A DNA stretch of 64,000 nucleotides from Tetracentron sinense (taxonomy: Eukaryota; Streptophyta; Magnoliopsida; Trochodendrales; Trochodendraceae): NCBI GenBank assembly GCA_015143295.1, contig CM026557.1, positions 31,319,965-31,383,964 of the forward strand, written 5' to 3'. Made by a program: the position numbers and the translations under genes. The notes under the pieces are model-generated. The model was not told the DNA's origin and searched no databases. It saw nothing but the letters and a program-made list of their open reading frames with translations. This document shows, in pieces, positions 15,937 to 44,891 of the stretch (positions are counted from its first letter, which is position 1; each line of letters opens with the position of its first letter).

Positions 15937-16375
15937 CCGAAGACTAATAAAGTCTTTGAGTGGTGCTGATCAGACAGACCTAAGTTCAAAATCTGTCTTC
16001 ATCTCACTAACGTCGAACAAATTCCCAGGAACAAGGAAAAATATTATACCAGCAATGTTTATTAATGGCAGAAAGAATTCTAAATACCGATCTTTTTAAC
16101 TACAAAACTGTATAATCACTTAAGATATTTCTATGGAGACCTCCAAGCTTGATTTCAAATTTATATGTTGGTGATTGCTTTGGATATTCTATCAGTAATG
16201 CTAATAATACTCATTAGAGAAACCCTAGATCTCACTTAGGACAATGTTTGTGTTTCCACATTGGATGCTTCTACTTTGTTTCAACAGAAATGCTAGCCCT
16301 AGTCGCAATCTTCCAAAGACGCAAGGTGGTGGCAACAAGTGTCATCCCATCTCCCTATTATAGGTTGCAACACTA
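15937..16375. other. Intergenic stretch, no gene
   Basis: No supported gene. The last five bases (CACTA, 16371-16375) are the left target-site duplication of the split TatA solo LTR that follows. Confidence 0.7.
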
Positions 16376-17682
16376 TGTAAGCACCCAAATTTTGCACCCC
16401 TTTAGCATCTTTTTACACCTCTAAAAACCCTCGTAAAAACCCTCTTTTAAAACCCCTCTTGCCACGTGCTTTGATTTTCAAAAACGGCCCCTCAGGTAAA
16501 AAATGACCAAAATGTCCCTAGAGTGAAAAATGACTAAAATACCCCTGTAAAAGTGCTAAATTTTTTTTACTTTGTCTAAAATGATTTTACAAATTTTTTG
16601 ATGAATTTTGGCTATTTTTTGGGATTAAATTGGACTTAAAACGGTAGAAAATGACCGAAATGCCCCTGGAGTGTAAAATGACCAAAATGCCCCTAAAAAT
16701 TTCTGAAAAATTAATGTTTTATCTAAAATATTTTTCTGAATTTTATTAGTTCAATTTTGACTACTTTCGGGCTAAAACGGAAAAATGACTTTTCAACTAA
16801 TCGGAGCGCGACATGTGGCGAAATAAAAAAAAATGATTTTTTGGCCCCTTAAATAGGGGCGCTGCTTCAAACAGCGCCCCCTTTGGGGCCTGTTCTCTTT
16901 TGGCATGTCGGCAGGCTTATTTTGTGAAACCTGGCTAGAGGCGCTGCTTCAAACAACGCCCCCCCAGTGTTGACCCATTTTGCCACCTCACTGTTCCTTG
17001 CCGCCTCACTTTTTGGGGTGTTTATCCAAAAAGGGTACTACTTGAAGTAGCGCCCCCTCATTTTGAAAAACTACAAATACCTCGACCCCATTCCTTCATT
17101 TTGAATCCATTCCACTTCCTCTCTTCTCTCTCCTCTTTCGAAAATCCCTCTTTAGCATTGGTGATCCCGGGGGTTTGATTTCGAAGAATCATTCTCGAGA
17201 GCACTTATTTCAGAGACCCTTTTGGGTTTCCCGAAAGGTAAAATCTCGTCAAAACTCTGTTTTTTGCTTAGTCTTTTATTAGTTTAAATTGTTTTTTATT
17301 ACTTTTAAATACTTAGATTGCTTGCCTGTCGAACCCCTGTCCAAATCCCGGTTCAAACTTAACTTGCTTGTCGAACTCCTACCCAATTCCCGGTTCAAAC
17401 TTAACTTACCTAGTCGAACCCCTACCTAAATTCAAGTTCAAATATAGCCTTGCCCTAGTCGAACCTCTGCCTGAACTCCGGTTCAAACCTAGCCTACCCT
17501 AGTCGAACCTATGCCCGAACTCCGGTTCAAACCTAGCCTAGCCTAGTCGAACCTCTGCTCGAACTCCAGTTCAAACCTCTGTCCAAACTTCGGTTCAAAC
17601 CTAAGTAAACCCTAGCTAAACCCTAGCTTAACCCTTGGTAAACCCTAATTAAACCCTACCTACCTAGTCGAACCCCTGTTCA
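16376..17682 (+). repeat. TatA solo LTR, left (5') part
   Basis: Starts TGTAAGCACCC and aligns with the minus-strand TatA LTR from its first base through the palindromes (16855-16880, 16936-16962, 17034-17055), a weakened TATA region (17071-17080) and the GTCGAACC tandem repeat (17320-17680). It then stops abruptly. The rest of this same LTR lies inverted at 42753-43279, where the matching target duplication is also found. It is therefore half of one solo LTR cut by an inversion. Confidence 0.9.
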
Positions 17683-17699
17683 AATACCCACCTTCGGAG
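17683..17699. other. Left breakpoint of the 25.6-kb inversion
   Basis: About 17 bp that fit neither the TatA LTR (ending near 17682) nor the TekB LTR (resuming at 17700, GGCTCTGATAAGG). It reads as short filler at a rejoined break. The partner junction is 43280-43288. Confidence 0.8.
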
Positions 17700-17740
17700 G
17701 CTCTGATAAGGCACAGACAACGCATAGACGACGTACTCTG

Positions 17741-17940
17741 ACAACGTATACGTTGTGCATCCGTTGTACAGCAACAACGGGTACGTTGTGTAGCAACAAC
17801 GGGTACGTTGTGCAACAAAAACGGTACGTTGTGCAGCAACAACGGGTACGTTGTGCAACAACAACGGTACGTTGTGCAACAACAACGGGTACGTTGTGCA
17901 ACAACAACGGGTACATTGTGCAGCACGTCGGGCACGTTGT
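17741..17940 (+). repeat. 22-bp palindromic tandem array, 5' LTR copy (~8 units)
   Basis: Units of ACGTTGTGCAACAACAACGG(GT) repeat about eight times, with 21- and 22-bp versions mixed. Each junction contains the inverted pair ACAACGGGTACGTTGT. The open reading frames crossing this array are by-products of a repeat without stop codons. Confidence 0.92.
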
Positions 17941-18004
17941 ACATAAGACAACGGACAACGAGCTCAGCACTATGCACAACACAACGGACAACGTGTTCGG
18001 CACT

Positions 18005-18212
18005 GTGCGTAGCACAACGTGTTCAGCATTGTTCACAGCATAACGTGTTCAGCACTGTTCACAGCACAACGTGTCTGGCACTGTTCACAGCACAACGTGT
18101 TCAGCACTGTTCACAGCACAACGTGTTCGGCACTGTTCACAGCACAACGTGTCTGGCACTGTTCACAGCACAACGTGTCTGGCACTGTTCACAGCACTAC
18201 GTGTTCGGCACT
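18005..18212 (+). repeat. 26-bp tandem array, 5' LTR copy (8 units)
   Basis: Eight units of GCACTGTTCACAGCACAACG plus TGTTCA or TGTCTG. Two unit types alternate irregularly. Confidence 0.92.
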
Positions 18213-20012
18213 CACGCTTTACTGAAATTTCAATAAGGGTATTGTGGTCTTTTGGTCGGTTTACTCTTACCTTAAGGGTTTGACCCGAGCCTTTAGGGCA
18301 TCATTCGACACTTAGAGAGTTTGAGAGAATAGGAAAAAGGGGAGAAGGCGATTCCAACCTAGGGTTTGTCTTTGGAAGAGAAATCAAAGGGTTTTGAGAC
18401 CCTAGATCACTTCCAGTCCGGGTTTTCTCCAAGATCTCGGCCCAAGCACTCGTGGAGAGCGTTCTCCAAGCTAGGGCAGCAGCTACACAGTCGTTTGGAA
18501 AGGGGATTTCTTCCTCACTTGATCAAGGTCGGTACTTCTTGCTACCCTCCTAGTTATAGTTCCTCTTCTTCCCCTTCATTTCCCTTTATTTCCTTGATTT
18601 ACACCTGTGCTATGAGATGAATGGTTATGAATGGTGAATGGAGGAGGATGTTGGCGAATGGATGCCATGTGGATGATGTGATGAATGAATGGGAAAGGGC
18701 ATTGTACTAATAATGAACATACAAGTGTGATGTGAGCATAACCCACCTAGAAAAGCATGATTTAGGTTTAAATGAATAATGAACATACCATGTTTGATGA
18801 AATGCCAAGGTGAATACAGTGAGTTGGAAATTAGGAAATGCATGCCTAATAAATTTTGAATATTGCAAGGGCCTATGATAGTGTGTTTTCTTGCTTTCCT
18901 AAATGATATGGATATTACATTGCTCAAATCATTGATGTTATATGTGTTGTGAAATTACCCAAATGTCATATTTAAATTTAAATGCAAGTATGTACACAGT
19001 TCCAACGAGCACGGCATGCATGACATGATTTATCGAGGTTTTCAAGAACATGGTTAGAGGTGGGACATATCCTATGATATGTTTTACCTCGCTTTTCACA
19101 AGAGAACAAGAACCAACATTCCATGAGGGGTCTCCCCTCACTCACAAGTGCATATCATGAAGAAGGGTCTCCCTTCCCTCGCAAGTGCATTGCATAAAGA
19201 AGGGTCTCCCTTCCCTCTCAAGGCATCTCTCAAGCGCAGCTCACAAGGATAGCTCACAAGTGTATCTCACAAGTCATATGATCACAAGCAAGCACGCATG
19301 ACATGCATGACATGACACGTACGACACAAGCAAGATAGACAAGACAAGCTTTCAAGTACGAAAAGATATTTCAAGCCAAGTCAAGTGCACGATGTTTTCA
19401 AGAGGTTTTATCGGTTTTCTACGAAATACAAGCATGATTATAAATTGCTTTACTTCCTTGTATGATATGAATTGCTTCTGTCTGACATATATGAATTGCT
19501 CCTGATTATGTATTGCCATTGTTATGCTATAATTGTTGGTTAGTATTTAGTACCCGCTGAGTATTCCATGCTCAGCCGTACTTCTTATGTCGGCAGGTTA
19601 TGAGGGAGCTGCTGCTCCATTTGATGTTTGTGCTCCTGGTCCATGGGTGGAGGAGGAGTACGTCGAGGAGCCTTTGGAGGAACCTCCAGTAGAGGGTTAC
19701 CATTAGGTGGTTGTAGATTCTGAGTGAATAGCTGTGGGTGAGATGAGAGATATACCTTCATGTATTTTGGCGGGTCTGTCCGCACTTTCTTTTGGATTCC
19801 TTTTGTGTAAACTTGGATTTGCGAATGTATTATACATAGAGGTTGTTTAGACTTCCGCTGTGCTTTATAGTTACGTTTCCGCTATAATGTCCTCTATTGT
19901 ATATGCTCTGTGGGTTTTTGCAGGTTGGTTTGTCAAGCAAGTCATGTAAGCCATGATTAGTCGTCCAAAGTTCACTCTAACTCCTAGGGTGGGTTTTGGG
20001 TCGCGACAGAAG

Positions 20013-20024
20013 TGGTATCAGAGC
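20013..20024 (+). other. TekB primer-binding site (initiator tRNA-Met type)
   Basis: TGGTATCAGAGC, four bases inside the 5' LTR end, is complementary to the 3' end of plant initiator tRNA-Met, which primes minus-strand DNA synthesis. Confidence 0.95.
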
Positions 20025-20370
20025 TTAGGCTTTAGGTCTCTAGGGTCACTTAGAATCTTATACCACGGCTTGACAAGAGCATATGTCAGGAAACAAGTTA
20101 GGAAGAAAGTAAGTCGGAAGAGAGTCTTGATCTAAGTGTAAGACTAAAACTTTAGTCTTAGTCTAAAATGGTTGCTTTAACCAAGTACAGGTCCTAGGTA
20201 CGCTAGAACACTAAAGTATAAGTATAATGTGATAAATACTCTGATGACTTGATGTGATGTATATTAGTATTATACAACTAATACAAATTGAATTATTGTG
20301 AAATGATATTGAAATAAACTGTGGTTTCAAGTGAGACTCATGTGGTGCTATTGTTCTCAGGACTTTAGTC

Positions 20371-21619
20371 ATGAGGCGGGGCACACGGGGTCGTGGACCA
20401 CACACCAGAGCTTCATCTTCTTCCAGAGATGAGGATGAGCAGTCGGACCTCTCTCAGGTCTTAGGCTCTATTGCTGAGACACTCGCCATACTGGCGGCTC
20501 GGCAGGCTATACCATCATCGGCGGCACCTACTCCACCGCCCGCAGCTCCAGTACATCGTACCGCTGGAGTTGAGACATTCAGGAGATTGAGGCCTCCACC
20601 CTTCCATGGGAGTGTGGACCCTCTTGCTGCGAAGGCATGGATCCTCCAGATGGAGAAGATATTTGCGGTGCTCTCTCCTGCAGAGGAAGAGAAAGTAGCA
20701 TGGGCAATCTTCATGCTAGAAGATGAAGCCCACCATTGGTGGTTGTCCGCGTTGAGGATGCGAGATTTGACCTTGCAGGGTCAACCTTGGACTTGGGAGG
20801 AGTTCAAGGGCACTTTTTACAAGAAGTATTTCCCAATTGGAGCACGGGAAAAGAAAGAGAGAGAATTCATCAACCTCGAGCAAGGTTTGATGTCGGTGGC
20901 ACAATACGAGGCCAAGTTCTCGGAGTTATCACGCTTCGCGACTCACATGGTTGCCACCGAGGCAATGAAGGCAAGAAGGTTTGAGCAAGGGCTCAAAGAT
21001 GTTATCATGGAGAAGGTTTCGGTCTTCAGACATACTACCTACCCTGAGGTAGTAGACAAGGCCTTATTGGTCGAGGCCAATTCAGAGACAGTGTCCAAGA
21101 TGAGGGAGTTGGCAAGAGGTCAAGCTAGTAGTTCAGCACCTTCAGAGAGGCGGACTCGTACCGGCCCTTATCAGTATACATGGCCAACACCATCGATGAG
21201 GCCAACTTATGCGCCTCCAGCTCCCCGGCAGTATGTGCCGCAGGCACCGCGACCTTAGGCTCTTCCAGCCCCACGGCCAGTTGCACCTCAGACGGTGAGG
21301 TATGCTCCACCTCCGGCCCCTCTGACTTATACACACGAGGTCTGCACTTCGTGCGGCCGAAGGCACCCGGCAGGAGATTGCCGAAGGGCATCGGGTGGAT
21401 GTTTTCATTGTGGTCGCCAGGGCCATATGATCAGGGATTGCCCCAGTCGGCATTTACCAGGCCAGTCTCAGGGGATTAGGCCCCCAGCACACCCAGTAGG
21501 ATCATATCAGGCGTCATCCCAGACTACCCGGTCTACACCTCAGTCTCGCCAGGCAAACCAGGGGCGTGTTTTTGCCTTGACAGAGGGTGATGCACTTGCA
21601 TATGATGATGTGGTGCAAG
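20371..21619 (+). CDS. TekB gag (capsid/nucleocapsid), one in-frame stop
   Basis: Gag builds the cytoplasmic virus-like particle and binds element RNA. The frame opens with an Arg-rich MRRGTRGRGPHTR. It has a retrotransposon gag core at residues about 70-230 (FHGSVDPLAAKAWILQMEKI, AHHWWLSALRMR, FKGTFYKKYFPIGAREKKE) and a Pro-rich linker. It ends with a CCHC zinc knuckle (CFHCGRQGHMIRDC) near residue 350. A TAG at 21256-21258 interrupts the linker, but the same frame continues to the zinc knuckle, so the full gag is one frame with one nonsense change. The 3' end is a splice donor at 21620 that leads into protease. If unspliced, the frame stops at 21649-21651. Confidence 0.88.
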
Positions 21620-21762
21620 GTACGCGTTTGGAGTTATTTCTTTATTCGTGATTGTTATGTTATGTTTTATTCCTTGTGTACGTACTTGGTATGCTATATA
21701 TGTATATACCTATGTGTATACACTGTTGATGCTTGAATTGACGTAATTAGCTAAAATTTTAG
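21620..21762 (+). other. TekB intron between gag and protease (143 bp)
   Basis: Donor GTGGTGCAAG/GTACGC and acceptor AATTTTAG/GAACCC join to give [20 protein letters not shown], a seamless lead into the protease active site. Without splicing, the gag frame stops at 21649 and protease is out of reach. TekC has the same intron at the same codon and phase (35118-35251). Confidence 0.8.
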
Positions 21763-24700
21763 GAACCCTACTAGTCAATGAGTGTTTGGCTCGAGTGTTG
21801 ATTGATACCGGGTCTACTCATTCATTTGTCTCACCGGGCTTTTCAGAAGGCTTTTCTGTGGAGCCTACTCAGCTAGAATCGGAGTTAGCCATTTCGACTC
21901 CTCTCGGCAAAACCGTATTGGCAGATAAAGTGTATAGAAATAGTGTGGTCCAAGTTGGAAGCCACGAGTTGGCGGTTGATCTCATCGTCCTTGGATTCCA
22001 AGACTTTGATGTTATATTGGGAATGGATTGGTTAGCGGCACATCACGGGCATGTAGCTTGCTTTGAGAAAATGGTACTCTTCAAGCCAGAAGAAGGGAAA
22101 CCATTCCACTTTCGTGGGTTGAGAAGTAGAGATATTGCTCGCTTTGCGGCATTGAGCTTAGTGAACCCTGAGGCAAAGGACTCATCAACTATTTCGGTTG
22201 TGAGTGAGTTCCTGGATGTATTTCCAGAGGAGTTGCCAGGATTGCCTCCAGATAGGGAGATTGAGTTTGTGATCGAGCTTGCACCAGGCACAGCTCCTGT
22301 TTTCAGAGCTCCATATAGAATGGCCCCTATTGAACTCAAGGAGTTGAAGACTTAGTTGGAGGAATTGCAAGGCCTTGGTTTCATTCGACCAAGTGTCTCA
22401 CCATGGGGTGCCCCGGTGTTGTTTGTTAAGAAGAAAGATGGCTCGATGCGGATGTGTGTCGATTACCGGCAATTGAACAAAGTCACTATAAAGAATAGGT
22501 ATCCCTTGCCTAGGATTGATGACTTGTTCGATCAGTTGAAGGGAGCGATATTTTTCTCAAAGATAGATCTTCGATCGGGCTATCACCAATTGAAGATTAA
22601 GGCGGAAGATATTCCCAAAACGGCTTTCCGGACTCGATACGGACACTACGAGTTCTTGGTAATGCCTTTTGGTCTCACAAACACGCCGGCAGCCTTTATG
22701 GATTTGATGAACCGGGTATTCCGGCCATATCTTGATAGGTGCATGATTGTATTTGTTGATGACATTTTGGTCTATTCCCAGACACGGGAAGATCACACAC
22801 GCGACCTATGCCTTGCTTTGGAAATGCTAAGAGAGCACAAGCTAGACGCCAAACTCAGCAAGTGTATGTTTTGGTTGGAAGAGGTGGCATTCCTAGGCCA
22901 CGTTGTTTCTGTGGAAGGCATCTCGGTTGATCCAAAGAAGATAGATGCAGTCATGAGTTGGGCGAGGCCCAAGAGTGTCACAGAGATACGCAGCTTCCTT
23001 GGGTTGGCAGGCTACTACAGGAGATTCGTAGAGGGTTTCTCTAGCCTTGCAGCACCGCTTACTTACCTGACAAGGAAGAATACAAAGTTCGTGTGGAGCG
23101 ACAAGTGTGAGACCAGTTTCACGGAACTGAAGAAGAGGCTTACTACAGCCCCTGTCCTTACTGTGCCATCCGGACCTTATGGGTATGAGGTGTATAGTGA
23201 TGCCTCACACGTTGGACTTGGGTGCGTACTCATGCAGCACAAGAAGGTTATTGCCTATGCATCAAGGCAGTTGAAGGAGCATGAGAAGAATTATCCCACG
23301 CACGACTTGGAGCTTGCGGCGGTCGTGTTTGCACTTAAGATTTGGCGTCATTACCTTTATGGGGTGGAGTTCTATGTGTTCACTGATCACAAGAGTCTCA
23401 AGTATCTCTTTTCCCAAAAGGAGCTGAATCTAAGGCAACGGCGTTGGATGAAATTTTTGAAAGACTATGATTGTACCATTCAATACCACCCGGGTAAAGC
23501 AAATGTAGTGGCTGATGCTTTGAGTAGAAGAACTCAAGGGTTGTTAGCACACATGTTGGTTCAAGAATGGAAGCTACTAGAAGATTTGGCAAATCTGGAC
23601 ATTAGTGTGAATGACTCTGTCCGTAGTCCTATCTTGGCAAATGTCACGGTTCGGCCATACATTATAGATTTGATCCAAGAATACCAAGCCACGGATGCTG
23701 AATTGTTGGCTTATCGGGACAAGGAAGTTGCTAAGGGTAGTGAGGACTTCTCTCTCACTAGTCGGGGTGCTATCACATTCAAGGGAAGGCTGTGCGTCCC
23801 ACCCAATGCAGATCTTCGAAGATAGATTTTGGATGAAGCACACCGTCCGAAGTACACAGTGCATCCAGGGGGTACAAAGATGTACCGGAACCTCAAGAGT
23901 CACTTTTGGTGGCGGAATATGAAGAGGGAGGTTGCTGAGTATGTGGCACGGTGCTTAGTTTGCCAACAGGTGAAAGCAGAACACATGCGACCTGCCGGTC
24001 TATATCAGTCTCTTCCGATTCCCGAGTGGAAATGGGAGAACATATCCATGGATTTCATAGTTGGCTTGCCAAAGACGGCAAGGGGCTCAGATGCGATATG
24101 GGTAGTAGTGGATCGTTTGACAAAGTCCGTTCATTTCTTACCCTACCGTACTACCTTCAACTCTAGCCAGTTGGCTGCACTCTACATCAGGGAAGTAGTT
24201 AGACTACATGGGGTGCCAGTCAGTGTTGTGTCAGATCGGGATCCAAGATTCACATCACGATTTTGGAAAAGTTTTCAAGAGGCTATGGGTTCCCAACTTG
24301 ATTTCAGCACCGCTTTTCATCCACAGACGGATGGACAAACCAAGAGAGTAAACCAAGTCATTGAAGACATGCTTCGGGCTTGTATGTTAGATTTCAGAGG
24401 AAGTTGGGAAGAGCACTTGCCTTTGGTTGAATTCGCCTATAATAACAGCTATCAGGCGAGTATCCAAATGGCACCATTTGAGGCCTTGTATGGGCGAAGT
24501 TGTAGGTCTCCTCTCTATTGGGATGAGGTAGGAGAAAGGAAAGTACTTGGTCCGGAGTTGATTGAGCAAACTGCAAACACAGTTAAGATCATTCGGGATC
24601 GATTGAAAGCCGCTCAAGATCGCCAGAAAAGTTATGCGGACACGCGCCGTAGGGACTTGGAATTTCAAATAGGGGATCGAGTTTTTGTGAAAGTATCTCC

Positions 24701-25088
24701 TAGCAAAGGGATCATGAGATTTGGAAAGCGAGGCAAGCTCAGTCCTCGGTATGTTGGGCCTTTTGAGATTATCACACGAGTTGGTGAGGTTGCTTACAGG
24801 GTAGCTCTCCCACCTCACATGGCCGCAGTTCACAACGTCTTCCATGTGTCTATGCTTCGGAAGTACATTGCGGATCCTTCGCATGTCATAGACTTGGAAC
24901 AGTTGGAGGTTCGAGAGGACCTCACCTTGATTGAAAAGCCAGTTCAGATTTTGGATCGAAGAGATCAGGTACTTCGCAACAAGACAATCCCTTTGGTTCT
25001 TGTGAAATGGCAACACCATGCTCGGGAAGAAGCTGCATGGGAGCGTGAAGCTGAAGTCAAAGCAAATTGCCCAGAATTAATTGTATGA
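21763..25088 (+). CDS. TekB pol (PR-RT-RNaseH-IN-chromodomain-like), two in-frame stops
   Basis: This is one continuous frame of about 1,108 codons. Domains in order: aspartic protease ([12 protein letters not shown], active site DTG); reverse transcriptase ([20 protein letters not shown]; catalytic FVDDILVYS); RNase H ([10 protein letters not shown], then TDHKSL); integrase with HHCC finger ([17 protein letters not shown]) and core with catalytic Asp in VVVDRLTKS, Asp in [10 protein letters not shown] and Glu in NQVIEDML; and a C-terminal chromodomain-like segment ([21 protein letters not shown]). Two TAG codons break the frame, at 22353-22355 (between PR and RT) and 23823-23825 (before IN). 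There are no frameshifts. The encoded enzymes would copy element RNA to DNA and integrate it in chromatin. Confidence 0.9.
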
Positions 25089-25178
25089 GTTTTGTATGGG
25101 TTTTGTATATGTGGCTTGTATTTTTGTTTTGATTCTGTAATGGATGTCCCGTCCAAATTTCAAGGATGAAATTTTTGT

Positions 25179-25191
25179 AAGGGGGGGAGGA
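25179..25191 (+). other. TekB polypurine tract
   Basis: AAGGGGGGGAGGA directly abuts the 3' LTR start (TGTAGAGCC at 25192). It is the plus-strand primer of reverse transcription. Confidence 0.95.
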
Positions 25192-25404
25192 TGTAGAGCC
25201 CCAGACTTTTTCATGCTTAGTACATGGCACTTTCGTTGTCATTTTGCCTTTAAAGAGATATAATTAATAAATAAGGAAGAAATTGGAAATTCTGAAATGT
25301 CAGAAATTTTCCTTTTCGAAGTACGAACCCAACGCAAGTTGAATCGTCAAAATCGGACGAACGAATCAAAAGATATGGCCAAAACAGTCCGGGCCTGTAG
25401 GTAA

Positions 25405-25515
25405 ACGTAGCTCGGTTATGCACTAAGAACGTAGCTCGGTTATGCGCTAAGGACGTAGCTCGGTTATGCGCTAAGGACGTAGCTCGGTTATGCACTAAGG
25501 ACGTAGCTCGGAAGG
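25405..25515 (+). repeat. 24-bp tandem array GTAGCTCGG... (5 units)
   Basis: Five copies of ACGTAGCTCGGTTATGCGCT plus AAGG. The inverted fragment at 43289-43563 has three copies. Removing two 24-bp units from the stretch 25192-25514 gives 275 bp, exactly the length of that fragment. Confidence 0.93.
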
Positions 25516-25569
25516 CGCTAAGGCTGTGCTCTGATAAGGCACAGACAACGCATAGACGACGTACTCTGA

Positions 25570-25850
25570 CAACGTATTCGTTGTGCATCCGTTGTACAGC
25601 AACAACGGGTACGTTGTGCAACAACAACGGGTACGTTGTGCAACAACAACGGTATGTTGTGCAGCAACAACGGGTATGTTGTGCAGCAACAACGGTACAT
25701 TGTGCAACAACAACGGGTACGTTGTGCAACAACAACGGGTACGTTGTGCAGCAACAATGGGTATGTTGTGCAACAACAACGGTACGTTGTGCAACAACAA
25801 CGGGTACGTTGTGCAACAACAACGGGTACGTTGTGCAGCACGTCGGGCAC
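25570..25850 (+). repeat. 22-bp palindromic tandem array, 3' LTR copy (~12 units)
   Basis: Same unit as 17741-17940 but with about four more copies, so the array has changed length since the LTRs were identical. Confidence 0.92.
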
Positions 25851-25914
25851 GTTGTACATAAGACAACGGACAACGAGCTCAGTACTATGCACAACACAAC
25901 GGACAATGTGTTCG

Positions 25915-26155
25915 GCACTGTGCGCAGCACAACGTGTTCAGCACTGTTCACAGCACAACGTGTTCAGCACTGTTCACAGCACAACGTGTCTGGCACTATT
26001 CACAGCACAACGTGTCTGGCACTGTTCACAGCACAACGTGTTCAGCACTGTTCACAGCACAACGTGTTCAGCACTGTTCACAGCACAACGTGTCTGGCAC
26101 TGTTCACAGCACAACATGTCTGGCACTGTTCACAGCACTACGTGTTCGGCACTCA
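25915..26155 (+). repeat. 26-bp tandem array, 3' LTR copy (9 units)
   Basis: Same unit as 18005-18212 with one more copy. Confidence 0.92.
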
Positions 26156-27955
26156 CGCTTTACTGAAATTTCAGTAAGGGTATTGTGGTCTTTTGGTCGG
26201 TTTACTCTTACCTTAAGGGTTTGACCCGAGCCTTTAGGGCATCATTCGACACTTAGAGAGTTTGAGAGAATAGGAAAAAGGGGAGAAGGCGATTCCAACC
26301 TAGGGTTTGTCTTTGGAAGAGAAATCAAAGGGTTTTGAGACCCTAGATCACTTCCCTTCTGGGTTTTCTCCAAGATCTCGGCTCAAGCACTCGTGGAGAG
26401 CGTTCTCCAAGCTAGGGCAGCAGCTACATAGTCGTTTGGAAAGGGGATTTCTTCCTCACTTGATCAAGGTCGGTACTTCTTGCTACCCTCCTAGTTATAG
26501 TTCCTCTTCTTCCCCTTCATTTCCCTTTATTTCCTTGATTTACACCTGTGCTATGAGATGGATGGTTATGAATGGTGAATGGAGGAGGATGTTGGCGAAT
26601 GGATGCCGTGTGGATGATGTGATGAATGAATGGGAAAGGGCATTGTACTAATAATGAACATACAAGTGTGATGTGAGCATAACCCACCTAGAAAAGCATG
26701 ATTTAGGTTTAAATGAATAATGAATAATGAACATACCATGTTTGATGAAATGCCAAGGTGAATACAGTGAGTTGGAAATTAGGAAATGCATGCCTAATAA
26801 ATTCTGAATATTGCTAGGGCCTATGATAGTGTGTTTTCTTGCTTTCCCTAAATGATATGGATATTACATTGCTCAAATCATTGATGTTATGTGTTGTGAA
26901 ATTACCCAAATGTCATATTTAAATTTAAATGCAAGTATGTACACAGTTCCCACGAGCACGGCATGCATGACATGATTTATCGAGGTTTTCAAGAACGTGG
27001 TTAAAGGTGGGACATATCCTATGATATGTTTTACCTCGCTTTTCACAAGAGAACAAGAACCAACATTCCATGAGGGGTCTCCCCTCACTCACAAGTGCAT
27101 ATCATGAAGAAGGGTCTCCCTTCCCTCGCAAGTGCATTGCATAAAGAAGGGTCTCCCTTCCCTCTCAAGGCATCTCTCAAGCGCAGCTCACAAGGATAGC
27201 TCACAAGTGTATCTCACAAGTCATATGATCACAAGCAAGCACGCATGACATGCATGACATGACACGTACGACACAAGCAAGATAGACAAGACAAGCTTTC
27301 AAGTACGAAAAGATATTTCAAGCCAAGTCAAGTGCACGATGTTTTCAAGAGGTTTTATCGGTTTTCTACGAAATACAAGCATGATTATAAATTGCTTTAC
27401 TTCCTTGTATGATATGAATTGCTTCTGTCTGACATATATGAATTGCTCCTGATTATGTATTGCCATTGTTATGCTATAATTGTTGGTTAGTATTTAGTAC
27501 CCGCTGAGTATTCCATGCTCAGCCGTACTTCTTATGTCGGCAGGTTATGAGGGAGCTGCTGCTCCATTTGATGTTTGTGCTCCTGGTCCATGGGTGGAGG
27601 AGGAGTACGTCGAGGAGCCTTTGGAGGAACCTCCAGTAGAGGGTTACCATTAGGTGGTTGTAGATTCTGAGTGAATAGCTGTGGGTGAGATGAGAGATAT
27701 ACCTTCATGTATTTTGGCGGGTCTGTCCGCACTTTCTTTTGGATTCCTTTTGTGTAAACTTGGATTTGCGAATGTATTATACATAGAGGTTGTTTAGACT
27801 TCCGCTGTGCTTTATAGTTACGTTTCCGCTATAATGTCCTCTATTGTATATGCTCTGTGGGTTTTTGCAGGTTGGTTTGTCAAGCAAGTCATGTAAGCCA
27901 TGATTAGTCGTCCAAAGTTCACTCTAACTCCTAGGGTGGGTTTTGGGTCGCGACA

Positions 27956-27960
27956 TAAAC
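27956..27960. other. TekB target-site duplication (one half)
   Basis: TAAAC directly follows the 3' LTR. The partner reads GTTTA on the plus strand at 43564-43568, next to the inverted LTR start. Confidence 0.93.
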
Positions 27961-31230: not shown

Positions 31231-31281
31231 GCCAAGGGTAGAAACCCTAAAAATCCCGAAATAAAATTTTGGGTTCGTGAT

Positions 31282-31473: not shown

Positions 31474-31700
31474 TGTAGAAAATTTTCAGATTTTTCTTCT
31501 TTCGTGTTTCGGTCATAACTTTTGACTCGTTCGTCAGATTTTGACGATTCAACTTGCGTTGGATTCGTCATTCGAAAAGGAAAATTCTTGACATTTTAGA
31601 ATTTCCAAATTATTCTTCATTTATTAATTATTCTACGTGAAAGGCCAAGAGGCTATGAAAATACTATTCATTAGGTACGGAAAGTTCTGAGGCGCTACAT

Positions 31701-31712
31701 TCTCCCCCCTTA
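31701..31712 (-). other. TekC polypurine tract
   Basis: TAAGGGGGGAGA on the minus strand, one base from the 3' LTR start. Confidence 0.9.
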
Positions 31713-31789
31713 CAAAAATTTCATCCTCAAAATTTGGATGGAACATACATGCACAAAACAACAAAATTTTACAAAAGAGGGAAAAATCC

Positions 31790-33551: not shown

Positions 33552-33655
33552 AACTGCGGCGAGCTCTAAGTCGTGAGTGGGATAATTCTTCTCATGCTAT
33601 TTCAATTGCCTTGAGGCATAGGCAATGACTTTACCGTGCTGCATGAGCACACATC

Positions 33656-35117
33656 CTAACCCCACATGGGAGGCATCACTGTAAACAACAAATCACCACT
33701 CCAGGAAGTCACTGAGAGGACGGGGGCCGTGGTAAGGCGTTTCTTCAACTCCTGGAAGCTCACTTTGCATTTGTCACTCCAACTGAACTTGGCATTTTTC
33801 CTCGTCAAGTAGGTGAGGGGTGCAATCAAACTGGAGAATCCCTCCACAAAACTTCGATAGTAGCCCGCTAATCCAAGGAAACTCCGAATTTCGGTGACAC
33901 TCTTGGGTCTCTCCCAGCTCATAACTGCCTCTATCTTCGCCGGGTCAACAGAGATGCCCTTAGCTGACACTACATGTCCGAGAAATGCTACCTTCTCTAA
34001 CCAGAATTCGCATTTACTCAATTTGGCATATACCCTATGCTCTCTCAACATCTCTAGAGCAAGGCGGAGATCTCGTGCATGATCTTCCTGTGTCTGGGAA
34101 TACACCAAAATGTCATCAATGAACGCAATCACACATCGATCCAAGTATGATCGGAACACCCGGTTCATCAGATCCATGAACGCCATCAGTGCATTCGTCA
34201 GCCCAAAAGGCATAACAAGGAACTCGTAGTGCCCATACCGAGTCCTGAAAGCCATCTTCGGAACATCTTCCGCCTTAATCTTTAACTGATGATATCCCGA
34301 TCTAAGATCAATCTTGGAGAAGAATCTCGCTCCTTTCAGTTGGTCAAATAGGTCGTCTATCCGTGGCAAGGGAAAACGATTCTTGATAGTGACCTTGTTC
34401 AACTGACGGTAATCGATGCACATTCTCATCGACCCATCCTTCTTCTTTACAAAGAGGACCAGAGCTCCCCATGGCGAGACACTTGGTTGGATGAAACCAA
34501 GTTGTTGTAATTCTTCAATTTGCTTTTTCAGTTCCTCAAGCTCTATTGGGGCCATTCTATACAGTGCCCTTGAAATTGGAGCGGTGCTCATAGCAAGCTC
34601 TATTGCGAACTCAATCTCCCGATTCAGAGGCAATCCGGGAATTTCCTTTGGAAACACCTCCAAGAACTCACTCACGACCAGAATGGCCAAGGAGTTTTGT
34701 GCTTCTAGGTTTGCTAAGCTCAAGGCTGCCAGGCGGGCAATATCCCTTTCTCTCAATCCCCAAAAGTGAAATGGTTTTACTCCTTTCGGCTTGAAATTCA
34801 CCATCTTTTCAAAGCATGCAATGTGACCGTGGTGGTTTGAAAACCAATCTATCCCTAGGATGACATTGAAATCCAAGTCTTGGAAATCTAGGACGATGAG
34901 GTCGGCTAATAGTTCGTTCTCCCCCACTTGAACTACACAATCTCTAAATATTTTATCCATATCAACTGATTTGCCAGGTGGAGTTGCAATGGTCAACTCC
35001 CGCTTTAACAGAGTAGCCTCAGTTGAGAAGCCCTTTGTGAAACTGGGTGAAACAAGGAGTGAGTGGATCCTATGTCGATCAACCCTCGAGCGAGACACTC
35101 GTTCACTAATAAGGCGC
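33656..35117 (-). pseudogene. TekC pol, 5' half (protease, reverse transcriptase, start of RNase H)
   Basis: This is the second exon after the gag/PR intron, starting at 35117 ([20 protein letters not shown]). The protease motif DTG has become DIG. A single-base shift follows near THS, and the rest of protease and RT read in the next frame: [20 protein letters not shown], then [11 protein letters not shown] at the RT active site. It runs into RNase H, where a further break occurs near 33656. These lesions make it a pseudogene. Confidence 0.85.
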
Positions 35118-35251
35118 CTGTGCGATTACACACTAACATCAATAGATTTCAGACAAGAATATACATCATACACAGGTAACTCCTAGTATAAATAACAACA
35201 CATCACATAATAGAATTTATTCATAACTTAAACTCTAGAATTCTTGCGTAC
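35118..35251 (-). other. TekC intron between gag and protease (134 bp)
   Basis: On the minus strand, donor GTCATGCAAG/GTACGC and acceptor TCGCACAG/GCGCC join to give [15 protein letters not shown]. Position, phase and flanking codons equal those of TekB (21620-21762), while most of the intron body differs. Confidence 0.8.
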
Positions 35252-35381
35252 CTTGCATGACATCATCGGATGCACGTGCGTCTCTCTCGGATAGGGCAAA
35301 AACTCGGCCCTGGGTGACTGGGCAAGGAGGCCATGTAGATGGGGAAGCCCTCGAAGCATGGGAAGAGCCCTGCTGAGATAT

Positions 35382-36476
35382 CTATCTAAAAGGGGGCCTA
35401 CTCCCCTGAGACTGAGCTGGTAGATGACGTCGAGGGCAATCCCTAATCATGTGGCCTTGGTCGCCACAATCAAAAATGCCTCCGGTAGCCTTCCGGCATT
35501 CCCCTACTGGATGCCTTCTTCCAAAAAGGGTGCATACCTCATGTGAATAGATAGGAGGAGCATAACCTGTAGTCTGAGGTAATGCAGGGCGAGGAGCATA
35601 TGAGGTAGCCGGTGAAGCAAAAGGGCGGGGAGCTTGTGGTGCCGAATACATCCTCTATGACTGAGCTGGCCCTGCGGACTGGTATGACATAGTTCTAGCT
35701 CTCTTTTCTGCCAAGCCACTAGACTGGCCCTTCTCCATTCATCTTCTTTTGAAGAACTCTTCAGAATTAGCCTCTGCTAATAGTGCCTTGTCCACGACTT
35801 CGGCATATATCTCATGTCTAAACATTGAGAAACTATCCTTGAGGTAGGCCTTCAACCCCCTCTCAAATTTTTGGGCTTTCATAGCCTCGGTAGCAATCAT
35901 GTGTGGAGAAAATCGAGATAACTCCGAGAATTTTGCCTTATAGGCGGCAATGGACATATTACCTTGCTCCAAGGTAATGAATTCAACTTCCTTTTTCTCT
36001 TTTATCCCTATTGGGAAGTACTTCTTGTTGAAGACATCCAAGAATTCTCCCCAAGTCCAGTCTTGACCCTGTCGGGTCAACTCCCGAGTCCTAAGTGCGG
36101 ACTTCCACCAATGATCGGCCTCACCTTCAAGCATGAAGGCGGCCCAAGTAACCCTTTCTGCCTCCGTAGGCACTAACACTGAGAATATCTTTTCTAATTG
36201 CCGAATCCATCCTTCAGCAACAAGTGGGTCAACACTCCCACAAAATGTTGGAGGCCTCATCCTCCGAAAAGCCTCTATCCCGACTTGTGCTCGATTGGGA
36301 GGAGCAGTTATAAGCGTGGCATTTGGAGGAGTAGCCGGTTGCCTCGCCGCTAACATAGCCAAAGTCTCGGCTATTGAAGTGAAAGCTTGGGCAAAGTCGG
36401 GTTGATCGTCACCCGATGGAGCATCACTTCCATTGCCCCTTGTGTTGTATCCATGACCCCGGGTATTGCGTCTCAT
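35382..36476 (-). pseudogene. TekC gag
   Basis: The gag core (36476-35739; MRRNTRGHGYNTR start as in TekB, FCGSVDPLVAEGWIRQLEKI, ADHWWKSALRTRE) stops at 35739. The CCHC zinc knuckle (IFDCGDQGHMIRDC, first Cys lost to Asp-context drift, CxxC partly kept) lies in the same frame further on (35651-35382). A Met at 36497 is also in frame, but the start matching TekB is 36476. Confidence 0.85.
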
Positions 36477-36765
36477 GATTTCTCCTGAGAACGGCAATAC
36501 AACATGAGTCTAACTTGGATATGCATTTAGTAATAGTTTCACAATTTATTTAGTACATATTCACTAAGCATAGAACAAGCACACATGGTATACATAACCA
36601 TAGCATAGCATACAATCCGTGTTTACTAAGTTCAGTTGGTTTACAACCGGTTTCAACTAGGACGAACTTGTTAGTCCATACTTGGAATACGACTCTTTCA
36701 TGCACCTATTGCCTTGTTCAATCATGGTATCAGTTCTAAGTGACCCTAGGGACTCTAATACCTAG

Positions 36766-36777
36766 GCTCTGATACCA
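36766..36777 (-). other. TekC primer-binding site (initiator tRNA-Met type)
   Basis: TGGTATCAGAGC on the minus strand, four bases inside the 5' LTR. Confidence 0.93.
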
Positions 36778-36781
36778 CTTT

Positions 36782-39079
36782 TTTCATGCCCCAAAATACC
36801 CCCAAGGAGTTAAGGGATACTTTAGAGGTGACTGTACGTACCTGCCAAACCATCCTGTAATAAACAAGGCTAACCATGATATATTACAATAATAATCAGC
36901 GTGCAGAACTATATCATGAATGCGGAAACGGGAACTAACTTTTTCTTTTATTCTATAACTCCAAAATAGTATTCCAAGTTATCATATACAAAACATAATC
37001 AGAGTAAAGGTGGACATGCCCACCTGACAACATACAAAAAAGAACTCTCTAACACTCTCCTCTCAACAGTAGTCAAGGTATGGCCACACGTCCAAATCCC
37101 TATCCTCTTGAGACTGCAACGGGATAGGTGGCTCCCTCTCCTCTACATACTCTTCCTCGACCCAAGGCTCAGGGTCGAGGACTTCCACGGTACCTACCGA
37201 CATAAAAGTACGGCTGAGCATGGAATACTCAGCGAGTACAAGCTACTAGCTAACCATAGTAATAACAAAAGCACAACAACAGCGTACACGATGCAAAATA
37301 TCACTTAAAGCAATACTAACAGCATAAGATAAATAGTATTGAACATGAAGCAATATCAATATCTTGACATGCATGCATGAATGCGAAAACTCTGATAAAA
37401 CTCATGTTCAGAAACCATTTTCATCTCTCAGTCTTGCTTGTGAAAATCATATATGCGTGTCGGTCTTGTTTGGAATTTCATGTCTTGACTTGTTCTTGAC
37501 TTGTATACTTGTGAGCCAGAGGCTAGCAGCCGCACATCCCTGGGCTGCCAACCTCCTTGATATTTCCTTCACTTGTGAGTCAGAGGCTAGCACCCTTCAC
37601 TTGGGCTACCAACCTCCTTGACATGTGCTTGTTTCCTTTCACTTGTGAGCCAGAGGCTAGCACCCTTCGCTTGGGCTACCAACCTCCTTGACATGTAATT
37701 ATTTCATTTTCTTGTGAGCCAGAGGCTAGTACCCTTCACTTGGGCTACCAACCTCCTTGACATATGCTTGTTTTCTTGTTTGATTTATCATGTACAAATA
37801 CTCTTGGAAAACCTGGTTCATGCATGCATGCATGCTTGTGGGTGTGATTCGTGAACACAATAATGGCATGGAAATATTGAGGATTACATATAGCATTTGA
37901 ACAATTAAAGGCACATGATAGGCATTGGAAAATTCATAAGGCATAGCATTATTTTTACTAACATTTGGGAAAAAGTCCTTAGTTCATATCTCATAGTTTT
38001 TATTCCACATTTTGCACATACATTATATCAAACATCTTGCATGTAATATTCAACCCTTTATTTATATTCCTTAATCTTAGGCTTTTTCATTCATTCATGC
38101 ATTTCCTCAAACATGTGGCATTCAATATCTTTTTATATTTGTTCATTTCATATTTTCTCATTCAACAATTCATCAAACACATGGGTGTATTCATTATGTG
38201 TACCAAGCCCTTCCATCATTTTCATCACACCACATCCATCTCTACTTAGTTTGTCTTGCATTATCCAAATAATCAAAGTATTGAGGTAAGAATAGGATAC
38301 TCATTATCAATCATAACCCATTTCAAAAGAAGACCTAGGTTACTACTAAGTTAGTTAGTAAGGGTGTACTAACCTTAATAATCATACTTGATCTTGCAAG
38401 AAAACCCTTGTTTGAGAACCCCTCTTGATGTAGAAGGATCTCACTTGAAGAAGATGCTTCAAGCTTAGAAGGGGTGATCCAACCTTGATCTTGCTCCAAA
38501 ACCCCTCTTGGATTTCTCTAGGATCTCCTCTCTCCCTTCTCTGTCAATCTCTATTAGTCTCCTTTAGGTTTTTGGGTAAACCATAACCCCCCAAGATGCC
38601 CCCTATTTATAGGCCAAGGGTAGAAACCCTAAAAATCCCGAAATAAAATTCTGGGTTCACGATCTACGATCGGTCGTAGCATATCTACTATCGATCGCAA
38701 ATATTCTACGATCGGTCGTAAGTTTCCACGATCGATCATACACGTTACCGAGATTTTTGTCCATTTCTGAGATTCTACGATCAATCGTAAATTTCTACGA
38801 TCGATCGTAGCTCACCTACGATCGTTCGTAGGGTCTATACGATCGTTCAAAACTTGCAGAAAATTTCCAGATTTTCCTTCTTTCATGTTTCAATCATAAC
38901 TTTTGACTCGTTCGTCAGATTTTGACGATTCAACTTGCGTTGGATTCGTCATTCAAAAAGGAACATTCCGGCATTTTAGAATTTTCAAATTCTTCTTCAT
39001 TTATTAATTATACTACGTGAAAGGCCAAAAGGCTATGAAAACACTATTCATTAGGTACAGAAAGTTCCGAGGCGCTACA
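36782..39079 (-). repeat. TekC 5' LTR (2298 bp)
   Basis: Same layout: shared block 38895-38941, palindrome array 38661-38851, TATA box 38603-38612, ~60-bp repeat 37500-37770. The inner end has decayed: TGTCGCGCC in the other LTR reads TTTCATGCC here, so the terminal CA of the minus strand is lost. Confidence 0.93.
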
Positions 39080-39084
39080 CTTAC

Positions 39085-40741: not shown

Positions 40742-41557
40742 CTGTAAAAGAAAGGAGCATAAAGTCAGTAAGGATATACATATATCAATTACTGTTAAAA
40801 AAAAAATCATAGTCCGCGGACAACCTCTTGGACTTACCAAAATTTGGAAAAGTTCAAGTCCACGGACAACCTCTTGGACTTAACCAATATTTGAAAAAGT
40901 CCAAGTCCACAGACAACCTTTTAGGACTTACCAAAATTTGGAAAAGTCTAAGTCTACAGACAACATTTCCACGGGAATTAATTAAAGTTCGCGGACATGA
41001 AGTCCTTAAGGCAGTTTTAAAGCCCGTGGACAAAGTCCTTGGGCAAAATTAGTCCGCAGACAAGTCTACAAATAGAACGTTATCTTTTTAGATGACCTTT
41101 CAGGTTTTCCTTATCAGAAAACCTTGGAACTCTGGTAATAGGACCGGGATTCCTATTAAGAAATATATATACAAAAAACAGAATGCTCAGAAGGACATTC
41201 CAAAACTTTTGGATGAGGAAAATCTCAATCCCCTTCTTCTATAAAGCCAAGATTTATTTCTTTCAAAGTTAGAAAGATAGTTGAGCATAGCTATAAAAAA
41301 AGGGATGATCGGATCAGAGAAGAAGGAAAATTCTTCTCTGAAAAGAAAGGAAAAGAAAGAGAGAACTCTGAGAAAACTAGAGTCCTATGATTTCAGAAAA
41401 GAAGAAGGAAAAATGCCTTCCCCGAATGCTAATGGTGCCTTATATAGGGACCCTAATCATCAGGATTTTGACCATCCATTTTTCAAAATGGACAGTCCAG
41501 ATGGGTAGGATCTGAATGACTGAACCATTCTTAGAAGTTCAGATCTTGAGGGGCATT
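40742..41557. other. Non-coding stretch with tandem repeat and TATA-like site
   Basis: Holds a ~47-bp degenerate tandem repeat (40808-41060; phrases like TCCACGGACAACCTCTTGGA then CTTACCAAAATTTGGAAAAG) and a TATA-like AGCTATAAAAAAAGGG near 41288. It may be part of an older element. No gene is supported. Confidence 0.5.
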
Positions 41558-42747
41558 TGTGGGTAGTGAAATCTCACCGTCCATAAAGAGGGTGTATGGT
41601 GCACCTGCCTATACCTGATCACCACCCATAAAAATGGGTGGTTGGGCCTCGCATATGCCAAAGGTACGCGCAATAGCTGGCCAAGTGCTGGCTCACCGCC
41701 AACCCGCCTAGCATTAAATGCTAGCAGCAGGGTCATAGTGCCCCACGGACACCCCTTTGTGTCAAAACCTTAGGAGACTGACACGTGGTTAGGGTTTGCC
41801 CTTACGGGCAAACCCCCACTTAAGCTTTACAGATAGACTCTATGAATCCATCCGCGGGCTAGTCAGATAATGACTGCCAAGTAGTAGAGAATCCCTGATA
41901 AAAAAGGACTCTCTTCCAACTTTGGGGGATCCCAAGATAAAGATCCACTCTTTTTCTCCAGTAATAGAGTGTTATATGGCACCCCATTCGAAAGGGGGAG
42001 TAATATCTCCCCTTTCTTGGAAATAAGACTTTTTCCTCTTTTAAAGGGAAGTCTTATCCTCCCAGGTTTCCCAAAAAAGGAAACCAATTTAGAATCCTTC
42101 AAGAAAAAAGACTCTCACTCGTACCAGGTTTCCCCAAGATAAGGGAAACTAACTGTCAAATGACAAATGACTCTCTCTAAAAGGAGATAACTTTTTTGAT
42201 TCCCTAAAAAATAGGAATTCAAAGGGGAGTCCAAAAAGGACTCTCCAAAAGCTATAAAAATGGAGTTTCTCACAAGAAACTCCCACGAAGAAAAAGAAGA
42301 AAAACACAGCAATAATCCGAGATAAGAGAGAGAAAAAGAGTTTTCTTTTCTTTTGCAAGAAAAGAACAATCAAAGAGGAAAAAGAATGATCTTTAATCAA
42401 TGGAGAATATCAAGTGATTTAATCAATGGAGAATATCAAGTGAACCCCCAATATGACCACCTCTCTTTCTTTTTTTCCTTTTTGGATACAAAGATCTCTA
42501 TGAGGTATCCTGTAATGCCTACATGGGATCTGGCAACCCCTTTGAATAAATAAATGATTTTATTCAATTATTTGTTGTTCTTTAATTTTTCTTCTTAATC
42601 AAAGGTTCTTCCCTAAATCGGGAAGGTAATTAATAATCTGGGTTTATTCAAATTAGAAAGATAATCTCTCACACAAAATAATAAACTCCACACAACAATG
42701 GAGGTAATTTGATCGCAATGAAATTTACACGTTATAGACGCAACACG
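41558..42747 (+). repeat. LtrF copy 1 (LTR-like, ~1.2 kb)
   Basis: Starts TGTGGGTAGTGAAATCTCAC, like copy 2 at 58484, and ends AATAATAAACTCCACACAAC... as copy 2 does near 60420. A TATA box (TATAAAAA, 42253-42260) and following TTTCTCACAAGAAAC line up with copy 2. It lacks the long hairpin array of copy 2. It has small palindromes such as GGTTTGCCCTTACGGGCAAA. The five bases 42748-42752 (TAGTG) are the target duplication of the TatA solo LTR. Confidence 0.6.
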
Positions 42748-42752
42748 TAGTG

Positions 42753-43279
42753 TGTGAGTACCTGAATCTTAACCCCCGTTCCCGATCAGGATTGAACCCA
42801 ATGAAGAATAAGCGATAAATTAGAATTGGGTTGAGAGTTGCCACCTATCTAATTCTGAGGGAAATAGGTCCCTGAAATGGTTGGATAAGGCATGATCTGG
42901 AAGTCAGAAGTCAAGGTAAGGGATTCATTTGAGTTAGGGGATGGTGTTAGGCACCCCTAAACTCCCATCCGAAGATGGTTACCTACTCCCTGAGTCTAAA
43001 TTAAAGTGGGGAAACCATAAGAGAAGCTTGAAATTTGATTTATATGCTGAGCAATATATTATTAACATAAATAAATGAATTGAGATAGACAAGATAAGAT
43101 CGGAATAGGGATTCTATCCTAAGGGAGCTGAACCCGATCAGGGTTGCCTACGTATCCACTGTCAGTGGAATCAAGCCACACGTAGTTCCGGAGGGGCATT
43201 GATGGTTTGATTTGATTTGATTTGATTTTGGATTGTGGGTGATTGAAAGGTTTGACGATTTTTGCTCCTATTTGAGGAG
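42753..43279 (-). repeat. TatA solo LTR, right (3') part, inverted
   Basis: Matches TatA LTR 6920-7466 in the same orientation: TGTGAGTACCTGAATCTTAA at the end, GCTGAACCCGATCA, and GCTCCTATTTGAGGAG at the break. It completes the LTR that starts at 16376. The flanking TAGTG (42748-42752) is the reverse complement of CACTA (16371-16375). Confidence 0.9.
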
Positions 43280-43288
43280 AAAAATGGT
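43280..43288. other. Right breakpoint of the 25.6-kb inversion
   Basis: Nine bases (AAAAATGGT) that belong to neither neighbour, between the TatA LTR part (ending 43279) and the TekB LTR start fragment (43289-43563). Confidence 0.8.
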
Positions 43289-43563
43289 CTTCCGAGCTAC
43301 GTCCTTAGCGCATAACCGAGCTACGTTCTTAGCGCATAACCGAGCTACGTTTGCCTACAGGCCCAGACTGTTTTGGCCATATCTTTTGATTCGTTCGTCC
43401 GATTTTGACGATTCGACTTGCGTTGGGTTCGTACTTCGAAAAGGAAAATTTCTGACATTTCAAAATTTCCAATTTCTTCCTTATTTATTAATTATACCTC
43501 TTTAAAGGCAAAATGACAACGAAAGTGCCATGTATTAAGCATTAAAAAGTTTGGGGCTCTACA
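43289..43563 (-). repeat. First 275 bp of the TekB 5' LTR, inverted
   Basis: The minus strand from 43563 starts TGTAGAGCCCCAAAC and follows TekB 3' LTR 25192-25514, with three instead of five GTAGCTCGG units, ending CGTAGCTCGGAAG. The next five plus-strand bases, GTTTA (43564-43568), are the TekB target duplication in reverse complement. Confidence 0.93.
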
Positions 43564-44880
43564 GTTTAGACTTGTATTTTAGGGGCAAGTCTTTGAGAAA
43601 TGATGAATCTTTTTAGCTTGTATTCAGGAGTCTGTCAAATTGCTCTAATTTTTGCCTAAACTGACTCTTGGAGTGTTAGTTTAGCGAGCTTTTTGTTGCC
43701 CTAATTTTTGCCTAGACTGACTCTTGGACTGTTAGTCTAGCGGGCATTTTGTTTTGACACAATCTTTTCTTAAGCCGTCATTTCGGATTTTTAATTTAGC
43801 CAGCATTTGGTGCTTTAATTTCTGCCTAAGCCATCCTTTCAGGTTTTCATCTTAGCGAGCTTTGTTACCAAAACTTTTGTCTAAGCCGTCCTTCAGATTT
43901 TTAACTTAGCGGGTATTTTGGTGCCCTAATTTTTGCCTAGACCATCTCATGAGATTTTGGTCTAGCAGGCTTTTATTTAATCCTCATGGATGGTATCACT
44001 TTGAGAATCATACATTGGTCGGGGGAGATACTCCATTGTCCGTCCATTGTAGTAAGCAGATATGCTTTATTTAAGCGTGTTCCCTTGATGGTGAGAAGTT
44101 CTTTTAGAGTTTTGGTTTCTTCTTCATATACTAGGTAGTAGTTTTTCTTCGTTTTACCTATATTGGGGGATAATAATGATGATTTTGTATCCCAGGTGGA
44201 TAATGTTCTTTTTTAGAAGAACTAGCTGAACCCAAGTTAATTTTCTCAGCCAGTCTACATACCCATGATAGGATTAAACCAATCGTAGTTCAAGTGGGGC
44301 ATTTAGATTCAAATTTTATGAGCAAATAGGTAGTTTCTGTTCATACCTAGGAAGGTTTTGACTCTGATCTTGTATCTTGAAGACTTTTGAAGCTTTGATT
44401 TGCATTTTGAGAGCGAATATGCAGTTTCTGTTCTTACCTAGAGGGTTTTGGCTTCGGTCTTGTATCTTAAAGCCTTTTGAAGCTTTGATTCATTTTTTAA
44501 GAGAGAATAGGTAGTTTCCATTCATACTTAGGAGGATTTCCACTTTGGTCTTGTATTCGGAGACTTTTGAAGCACGGTAAACAGTTTTAGCTCGTATTCA
44601 GGAGCCTGTCAAATTGCTCTAATTTTTGCCTAGACTAACTCTTGGAGTGTTAGTTTAGCGAGCTTTTTGCTGTCCTAATTTTTGCCTAGACTGACTCTTG
44701 GAGTGTTAGTCTAGCGGTCATTTTGTTTGAATCAAACTTTTATCTAAGCCGCCCCTTAGGATTTTCAACCTAGCGAGTCATTGGCGCTCTAATTTTTGCC
44801 TAAGCCATCTTTTAAAGTTTTGGTCTAGCGAGCTTTTCAATTCCTAGGAGTAATATCACTTTAGGAATCTTGCATTCGTA
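43564..44880 (-). repeat. TatE 3' region with two kinds of tandem repeat (copy 1)
   Basis: Units of about 60 bp built on plus-strand GCCTAGACTGACTCTTGGAG and TTAGTCTAGCGGGC alternate with units of about 95-100 bp built on TAGGTAGTTTCTGTTCATAC and CTTGTATCTTGAAGACTTTT. Copy 2 is 47785-49102. No coding sequence. A block with CATGATAGGATTAAACCAAT near 44265 recalls TatA LTR sequence, so part of this may be LTR-like. Confidence 0.7.
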
Positions 44881-44891
44881 GGAGGGATGAT

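Follow-up and report, generated by a model that had tools for sequence, protein, structure and literature searches.

A probable 25.6-kb inversion with both breaks inside LTRs in Tetracentron sinense, recognised by two split target-site duplications

Two LTRs in this region of Tetracentron sinense are each divided into two distant pieces in opposite orientation, which raises the question of what rearrangement separated them and how it arose. The analysed window was the whole stretch of 64,000 bases, which contains no N and has a G+C content of 40.9%. The window was aligned to itself in both orientations, with matches kept from a length of 80 bp upwards and an E value of 1e-5 or lower. Together with the raw sequence and focused alignment, this comparison indicated that a 25.6-kb segment is inverted and that both breaks lie within LTRs, as the first-pass annotation of this DNA had proposed. 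Every element described in that annotation was recovered by these three approaches.

The first divided element is a solo LTR termed TatA. The labels TatA and TatE are those of the first-pass annotation; the Tat lineage is defined by RT phylogeny and a dual RNase H. The first part of TatA occupies 16376–17681 on the plus strand, as judged by homology to an older LTR copy of the same family in the window, and weak similarity extended to 17694 with a looser scoring. It begins with TGTAAGCACC directly after CACTA. The last part, delimited by the same homology, lies inverted at 42753–43279 (minus strand) and starts with TGTGAGTACC after TAGTG. Positions 16376–17681 corresponded to 8893–7526 in the older LTR, and 43279–42766 corresponded to 7466–6932. 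The identities were determined over shorter stretches as 79.5% (16487–17323) and 79.2% (42766–43248). Since the parts match neighbouring stretches of one older LTR, the two pieces are consecutive parts of one LTR, in agreement with the proposal that TatA is broken and that its remaining end is inverted at 42753–43279; homology on the left ended at 17681. The sequence lost between the parts was 59 bp with one alignment scoring and approximately 110 bp with looser gap costs; approximately 100 bp had been estimated previously. When the left flank of TatA was compared with a related site at 60452–61200, the score was 28, with a mean of 29.4 and a maximum of 43 for 200 shuffles. This comparison was uninformative on flank contiguity across TatA; that no counterpart of the flank was detected at the related site near 60.5 kb stands among the points against the explanation preferred below.

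The second divided element, TekB (17700–27955), is a Ty3/gypsy retrotransposon. Its 5′ LTR (17700–20008, plus strand) lacks its first 275 bp and 13 deleted bp. Self-comparison and focused alignment located these 275 bp, inverted, at 43289–43563 on the minus strand, where they had been placed previously. The internal region (20009–25191) and the complete 3′ LTR (25192–27955) follow on the plus strand. The TekB break is inside a 24-bp tandem array within the LTR, and the array at 25405–25523 of the 3′ LTR corresponds to this break site; the array of the 5′ piece is shorter by two units than that of the 3′ LTR. With TekB's own 3′ LTR as the reference, 13 bp were missing between 43289 and 17700. 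The motif GGAAG, which lies at the edge of the last array unit of the 3′ LTR, was present at the right join and confirmed this loss, the size of which had been given as approximately 13 bp. A search for the exact 24-bp unit in viral contigs yielded 0 matches.

Pfam matches above the cut-off were obtained in TekB for gag, aspartic protease, RT, RNase H, and the integrase zinc-binding domain. The integrase core (25.3 bits, cut-off 32.6) and a Chromo match (21.1 bits, cut-off 25.1) were below it; a C-terminal chromodomain, together with placement in an RT tree, marks the Chromovirus/Tekay clade. The order gag, protease, RT-RNase H, and integrase between LTRs with a target-site duplication (TSD) is that of Ty3/gypsy elements. 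The frame is interrupted: stops are found in pol at 22353–22355 and 23823–23825, and gag lies in another frame. As read from these frames, the coding capacity of TekB is not intact. In a search with the TekB RT stretch, the named entries among the best 120 of 7972 matches were nearly all from flowering plants, as were those among the 96 matches of a subtilase exon in the window. One bacterial MAG and one fungal entry were seen among the exceptions in the two sets together, and no match above 71% identity was present among the matches listed for either query.

Both elements retain their TSDs in split form, as seen in the raw sequence. CACTA at 16371–16375 (plus strand) on the left of TatA agrees with the inverted TAGTG at 42748–42752 (minus strand) on its right. 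TAAAC at 27956–27960 (plus strand) follows the end of the TekB 3′ LTR at 27955, and the inverted GTTTA at 43564–43568 (minus strand) follows the TekB 5′ LTR start at 43563. These pairings had been recognised in the first-pass annotation, together with the judgement that two independent matches by chance would be very unlikely. Of 63,996 positions in the window, 37 carry TAGTG and 69 carry GTTTA, and the chance of both split TSDs agreeing independently was approximately 6e-7, which supports that judgement. A structurally complete Ty3/gypsy element nested inside the inverted segment (29413–39079, minus strand) served as a control: it is flanked on both sides by CTTAC (29408–29412 and 39080–39084), indicating that TSDs are readable in this region. 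Flipping 17700–43279 makes the TatA solo LTR and TekB both whole and restores both 5-bp TSDs, as had been claimed. Both joins are reciprocal, and the ancestral order returns on flipping. This flip appears to be the sole simple rearrangement, among those that we found, that restores two elements and two TSDs together.

TatE sequence had also been said to be rejoined across TekB. The flanks joined across TekB aligned through the join to a 90-bp array with a score of 357; by itself, the right flank reached 335 and the left flank 137. A second run gave 230 for the joined flanks, 195 for the right flank and 157 for the left. Insertion of 5, 30, 45, and 60 random bases at the join gave 240, 233, 255, and 258 (one draw each), so that zero spacing was not singled out. 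The alignment through the join therefore stood weakly, and the spacer controls did not favour direct contiguity. Contiguity of the host element across TekB is suggested by the TSD, to which the array alignment adds weak support.

The joins themselves were then considered. The left join (17682–17699, plus strand) contains up to 18 bp of uncertain origin, which may be LTR remainder, filler, or both. A template for it was searched for and not found; the best match covered 9 of 14 bases. On the right, similarity to the older LTR ended at 43279 in both scorings, and the following 9 bp (43280–43288) are probable filler. Together with base 43289, they form ten bases that copy, in inverted orientation and at 9 of 10 positions, the sequence 43254–43263, located 16 bp away. 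By chance, a match of this quality was obtained in 0.5% of trials with shuffled fillers, in 0.8% with random LTR 10-mers, and in 4.3% with random places in the window; given the last value, it is possible that these bases are native LTR sequence. Short filler at both joins had been suggested previously. Templating of filler on close-by DNA through short primer repeats is characteristic of SD-MMEJ.

A rearrangement absent from the first-pass annotation lies next to the right join. Self-comparison identified a tandem duplication of two units on the plus strand, unit A (43305–47525), whose left edge is within the 24-bp array, and unit B (47526–51751), in which the TekB LTR start (47526–47784) and GTTTA (47785–47789) occur once more, likewise absent from that annotation. 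An alignment of the units showed 51 differences over 4216 aligned sites (1.21%) and 15 gap columns. Since both carry the TekB LTR start and GTTTA, the TekB insertion should predate the duplication. Only 1 bp is shared at the duplication join 47525/47526, as judged by eye. The left edge of the duplication and the inversion break share one array; the edge is 16 bp away from the TekB side of the join and 25 bp away from the TatA side. With random placement, the chance of a pair at most 16 bp apart was 0.0021 (64 kb) to 0.0044 (30 kb), and that of a pair at most 25 bp apart was 0.0032 to 0.0068, both for distances picked post hoc.

The divergence between the two TekB LTRs was uneven. The tandem arrays (within 17700–18212 and 25404–26153) were left out of the counts because their copy number differs. 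The separated first 212 bp of the 5′ LTR differed from the 3′ LTR at 8 sites, and the later LTR differed at 13 of 1794 sites (Fisher p 0.0008). All 13 substitutions fell in 18233–19057, so that 18213–19057 holds all of them and the last 951 bp none; against this 13-substitution part alone, the first 212 bp gave an approximate p of 0.051. With random scatter, the probability of finding all 13 differences among the first 843 of 1794 sites was 5.4e-5, and for any gap of this length it was at most 7.6e-4. The boundary at 19057 was picked post hoc, and the Fisher value of 5e-5 for that split is too small or approximate. As LTRs are identical at insertion, this unevenness is read most simply as LTR–LTR gene conversion. 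On this simplest reading, conversion would have reached the 3′ parts of the LTRs but spared the piece that the inversion removed.

Such conversion probably spoils simple dating of TekB. The structure demands LTRs more diverged than the duplication, and the seemingly unconverted part (21 of approximately 1057 sites) agreed in direction, its excess over 1.21% not being significant (p 0.07, approximate). Over all counted LTR sites (21 of 2006) no difference from the duplication was found (p 0.61). Taken by itself, the later LTR (13 of 1794) would appear to be younger than the duplication, again not significantly (p 0.10). With a substitution rate of 1.3e-8 per site and year, the values of 2.0% and 1.21% would give soft estimates of approximately 0.8 and 0.5 million years. 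The original reading of the locus as an inversion was supported and yet incomplete, as it lacked the duplication in the same array, the position of the TekB break within the 24-bp array, and the uneven LTR divergence.

We considered whether the arrangement is a product of assembly, in which a contig was wrongly oriented and gap-closed in repeats and the 4.2-kb repeat represents two haplotypes placed end to end. The joins do lie within repeats, and a divergence of approximately 1.21%, as between the duplication units, also occurs between haplotypes. However, the break sites offer little to mislead an overlap assembler. All 8 comparisons between them, made in both orientations and with flanks of 272–301 bp on either side, scored under the 95% point of their 200 shuffles. 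This lack of shared sequence makes an assembly error unlikely, and the uninterrupted window, the deletions and probable filler typical of repair at the joins, and the single shared base at the duplication join also argue against it. We infer that the rearrangement arose in the plant.

Alternatively, the inverted LTR start at 43289–43563 could derive from a different, older insertion of the TekB family, so that only the TatA split would be real and the second match a coincidence. The contrast between 8/212 and 13/1794 differences, taken alone, would suggest a fragment from another copy and in this respect counts against the preferred explanation. Nevertheless, such an insertion would need a chance 5-bp TSD agreement (approximately 0.001) precisely at the border of the LTR, LTR break points that complement each other to within 13 bp, and a chance pairing with an independently split TatA LTR. 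The undisputed LTR pair is itself uneven, with its 13 substitutions confined to 18233–19057. We therefore regard a separate insertion as very improbable. Inversion by homologous recombination between oppositely oriented repeats is a common route and repeats abound in the window, but it can be set aside almost completely here, since the lack of similarity between the break sites, which lie in unrelated LTRs, speaks against recombination between inverted repeats in either orientation, no inverted homologous repeats were found at both breaks in the eight comparisons, and each join is non-homologous.

The locus shows the features of an inversion by end joining, with 13 bp and approximately 60–110 bp lost and probable filler at 43280–43288. 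Break sites without homology, small losses, and filler that may be copied from nearby DNA favour repair by end joining, possibly with limited synthesis, as far as the sequence can tell. In the proposed course of events, a region of nested LTR retrotransposons would have been hit by two double-strand breaks, one inside the TatA solo LTR and the other in the 24-bp array of the TekB 5′ LTR, TekB then lying on the minus strand. The segment between the breaks would have been flipped and its ends joined without homology, with small losses and possible synthesis of filler. We consider it highly likely that an end-joining inversion through two double-strand breaks, with a probable link to the duplication through the array, is the best explanation of the whole.

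The inversion and the duplication probably either arose together in a compound event or reflect a fragile site that was used twice. The array may have been broken in both sister chromatids in one episode, or a fragile array may have been reused another time; judged from the sequence, either order of the two rearrangements would fit. For the single episode, we tentatively propose that both sister chromatids broke in the array and that one end led to the inversion and the other to an end-joined unequal sister exchange. If this is true, a minisatellite internal to an LTR would act as a chromosome fragile site.

Folding of single-stranded DNA was examined for four stretches relative to shuffles. 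A hairpin in the 24-bp array was rejected as the fragile feature, as neither of the two stretches that hold the array folded better than its shuffles did (z +1.83 and +1.12). The z value was −0.80 for the left join side and −4.50 for 43240–43295 at the right join. The latter stretch includes the filler, and its hairpin may thus be a result of the repair and not its cause.

Paired-break repair is listed as one mechanism of inversion (PMC13393857). At wheat deletion junctions, SD-MMEJ and filler DNA have been described, with the filler templated in cis, according to the available text (PMC7156093); these junctions are deletions, not inversions. The present locus resembles small inversions formed in repeat-rich plant DNA by two double-strand breaks and end joining (NHEJ or SD-MMEJ) in its non-homologous joins, small losses, short filler, and breaks in transposable elements. 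It differs in that two split TSDs in one sequence sufficed to deduce the ancestral order, no comparison genome being needed, and in that one break lies in an LTR-internal 24-bp array. For the Triticeae 4L/5L translocation, the accessible part of one report describes breakpoint reuse at a rearrangement hotspot (PMC5144955). The likeness is that more than one rearrangement used one place, whereas here the coincidence is within 16 bp and concerns an inversion and a tandem duplication, perhaps from a single event. LTR conversion tracts that erase the age signal appear in the available portion of a study of camelids (PMC8605555). As in intra-element LTR gene conversion, similarity within the LTR pair is much higher in one part than elsewhere; unlike in those cases, one LTR piece was removed physically by the inversion and shows the highest divergence. 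Large-size inversions have been reported in maize, none of them recognised by split TSDs in the accessible text of that report (PMC2773423). Our literature search did not find an inversion recognised by split TSDs; most subscription papers were outside its scope, and no claim of absence from print is made.

The locus is a clean example in which break sites coincide in an unusual way; it represents no new kind of system. The inversion has the appearance of a well-preserved scar left by error-prone DNA repair of the ordinary kind. With LTRs that diverge so unevenly, caution is due when the TekB insertion, and hence the inversion, is dated by LTR identity. Split TSDs allow a small inversion and its break sites to be read from one plant sequence. 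With two rearrangements in one array, 16 bp apart, the locus offers a sharp test case for LTR tandem arrays as recurrent break sites.

The two long terminal repeats (LTRs) of TekB, a Ty3/gypsy element, were compared over the stretch 18213-20008 and its counterpart, 26154-27955. All 13 of the 13 substitutions fell before 19058, and none was found in the last 951 bp. The stretch probably underwent gene conversion between the LTRs. Each TekB LTR also carries 22-bp and 26-bp arrays, within 17762-18212 in one and 25590-26153 in the other, and the numbers of repeat units are unequal (8.3 vs 12.3 and 8.7 vs 9.7).

A 4.2-kb tandem duplication, which starts within an LTR array, was identified at 43305-51751, and its two units were 1.2% diverged. 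No differences between the units were observed over their first 480 bp; under a uniform rate, the chance of such identity was 0.003.

At the right join of the inversion, a strong single-strand hairpin was predicted at 43254-43288 (z of -4.5; folded stretch, 43240-43295), and the probable filler forms part of it. Near the left break, at 17606-17662, an 11-bp unit of the TatA LTR, TAAACCCTAGC, is repeated about five times. This repeat, which may resemble plant telomere repeats, ended approximately 20-40 bp short of the break.

The motif ACGTTAT was present at 41077-41083 and again at 42729-42735, and the end of the stretch bracketed by these copies was similar to the region at 59.9-60.5 kb. The stretch is possibly an older solo LTR that lacks canonical ends. 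An older LTR of the TatA family was located on the minus strand at 6932-8893, with approximately 79% identity over the matched parts in the self-comparison of the window. The TatA solo LTR itself lay approximately 1.1 kb from a subtilase-like gene at 12012-15297, which showed Peptidase_S8 and fn3_6 matches.
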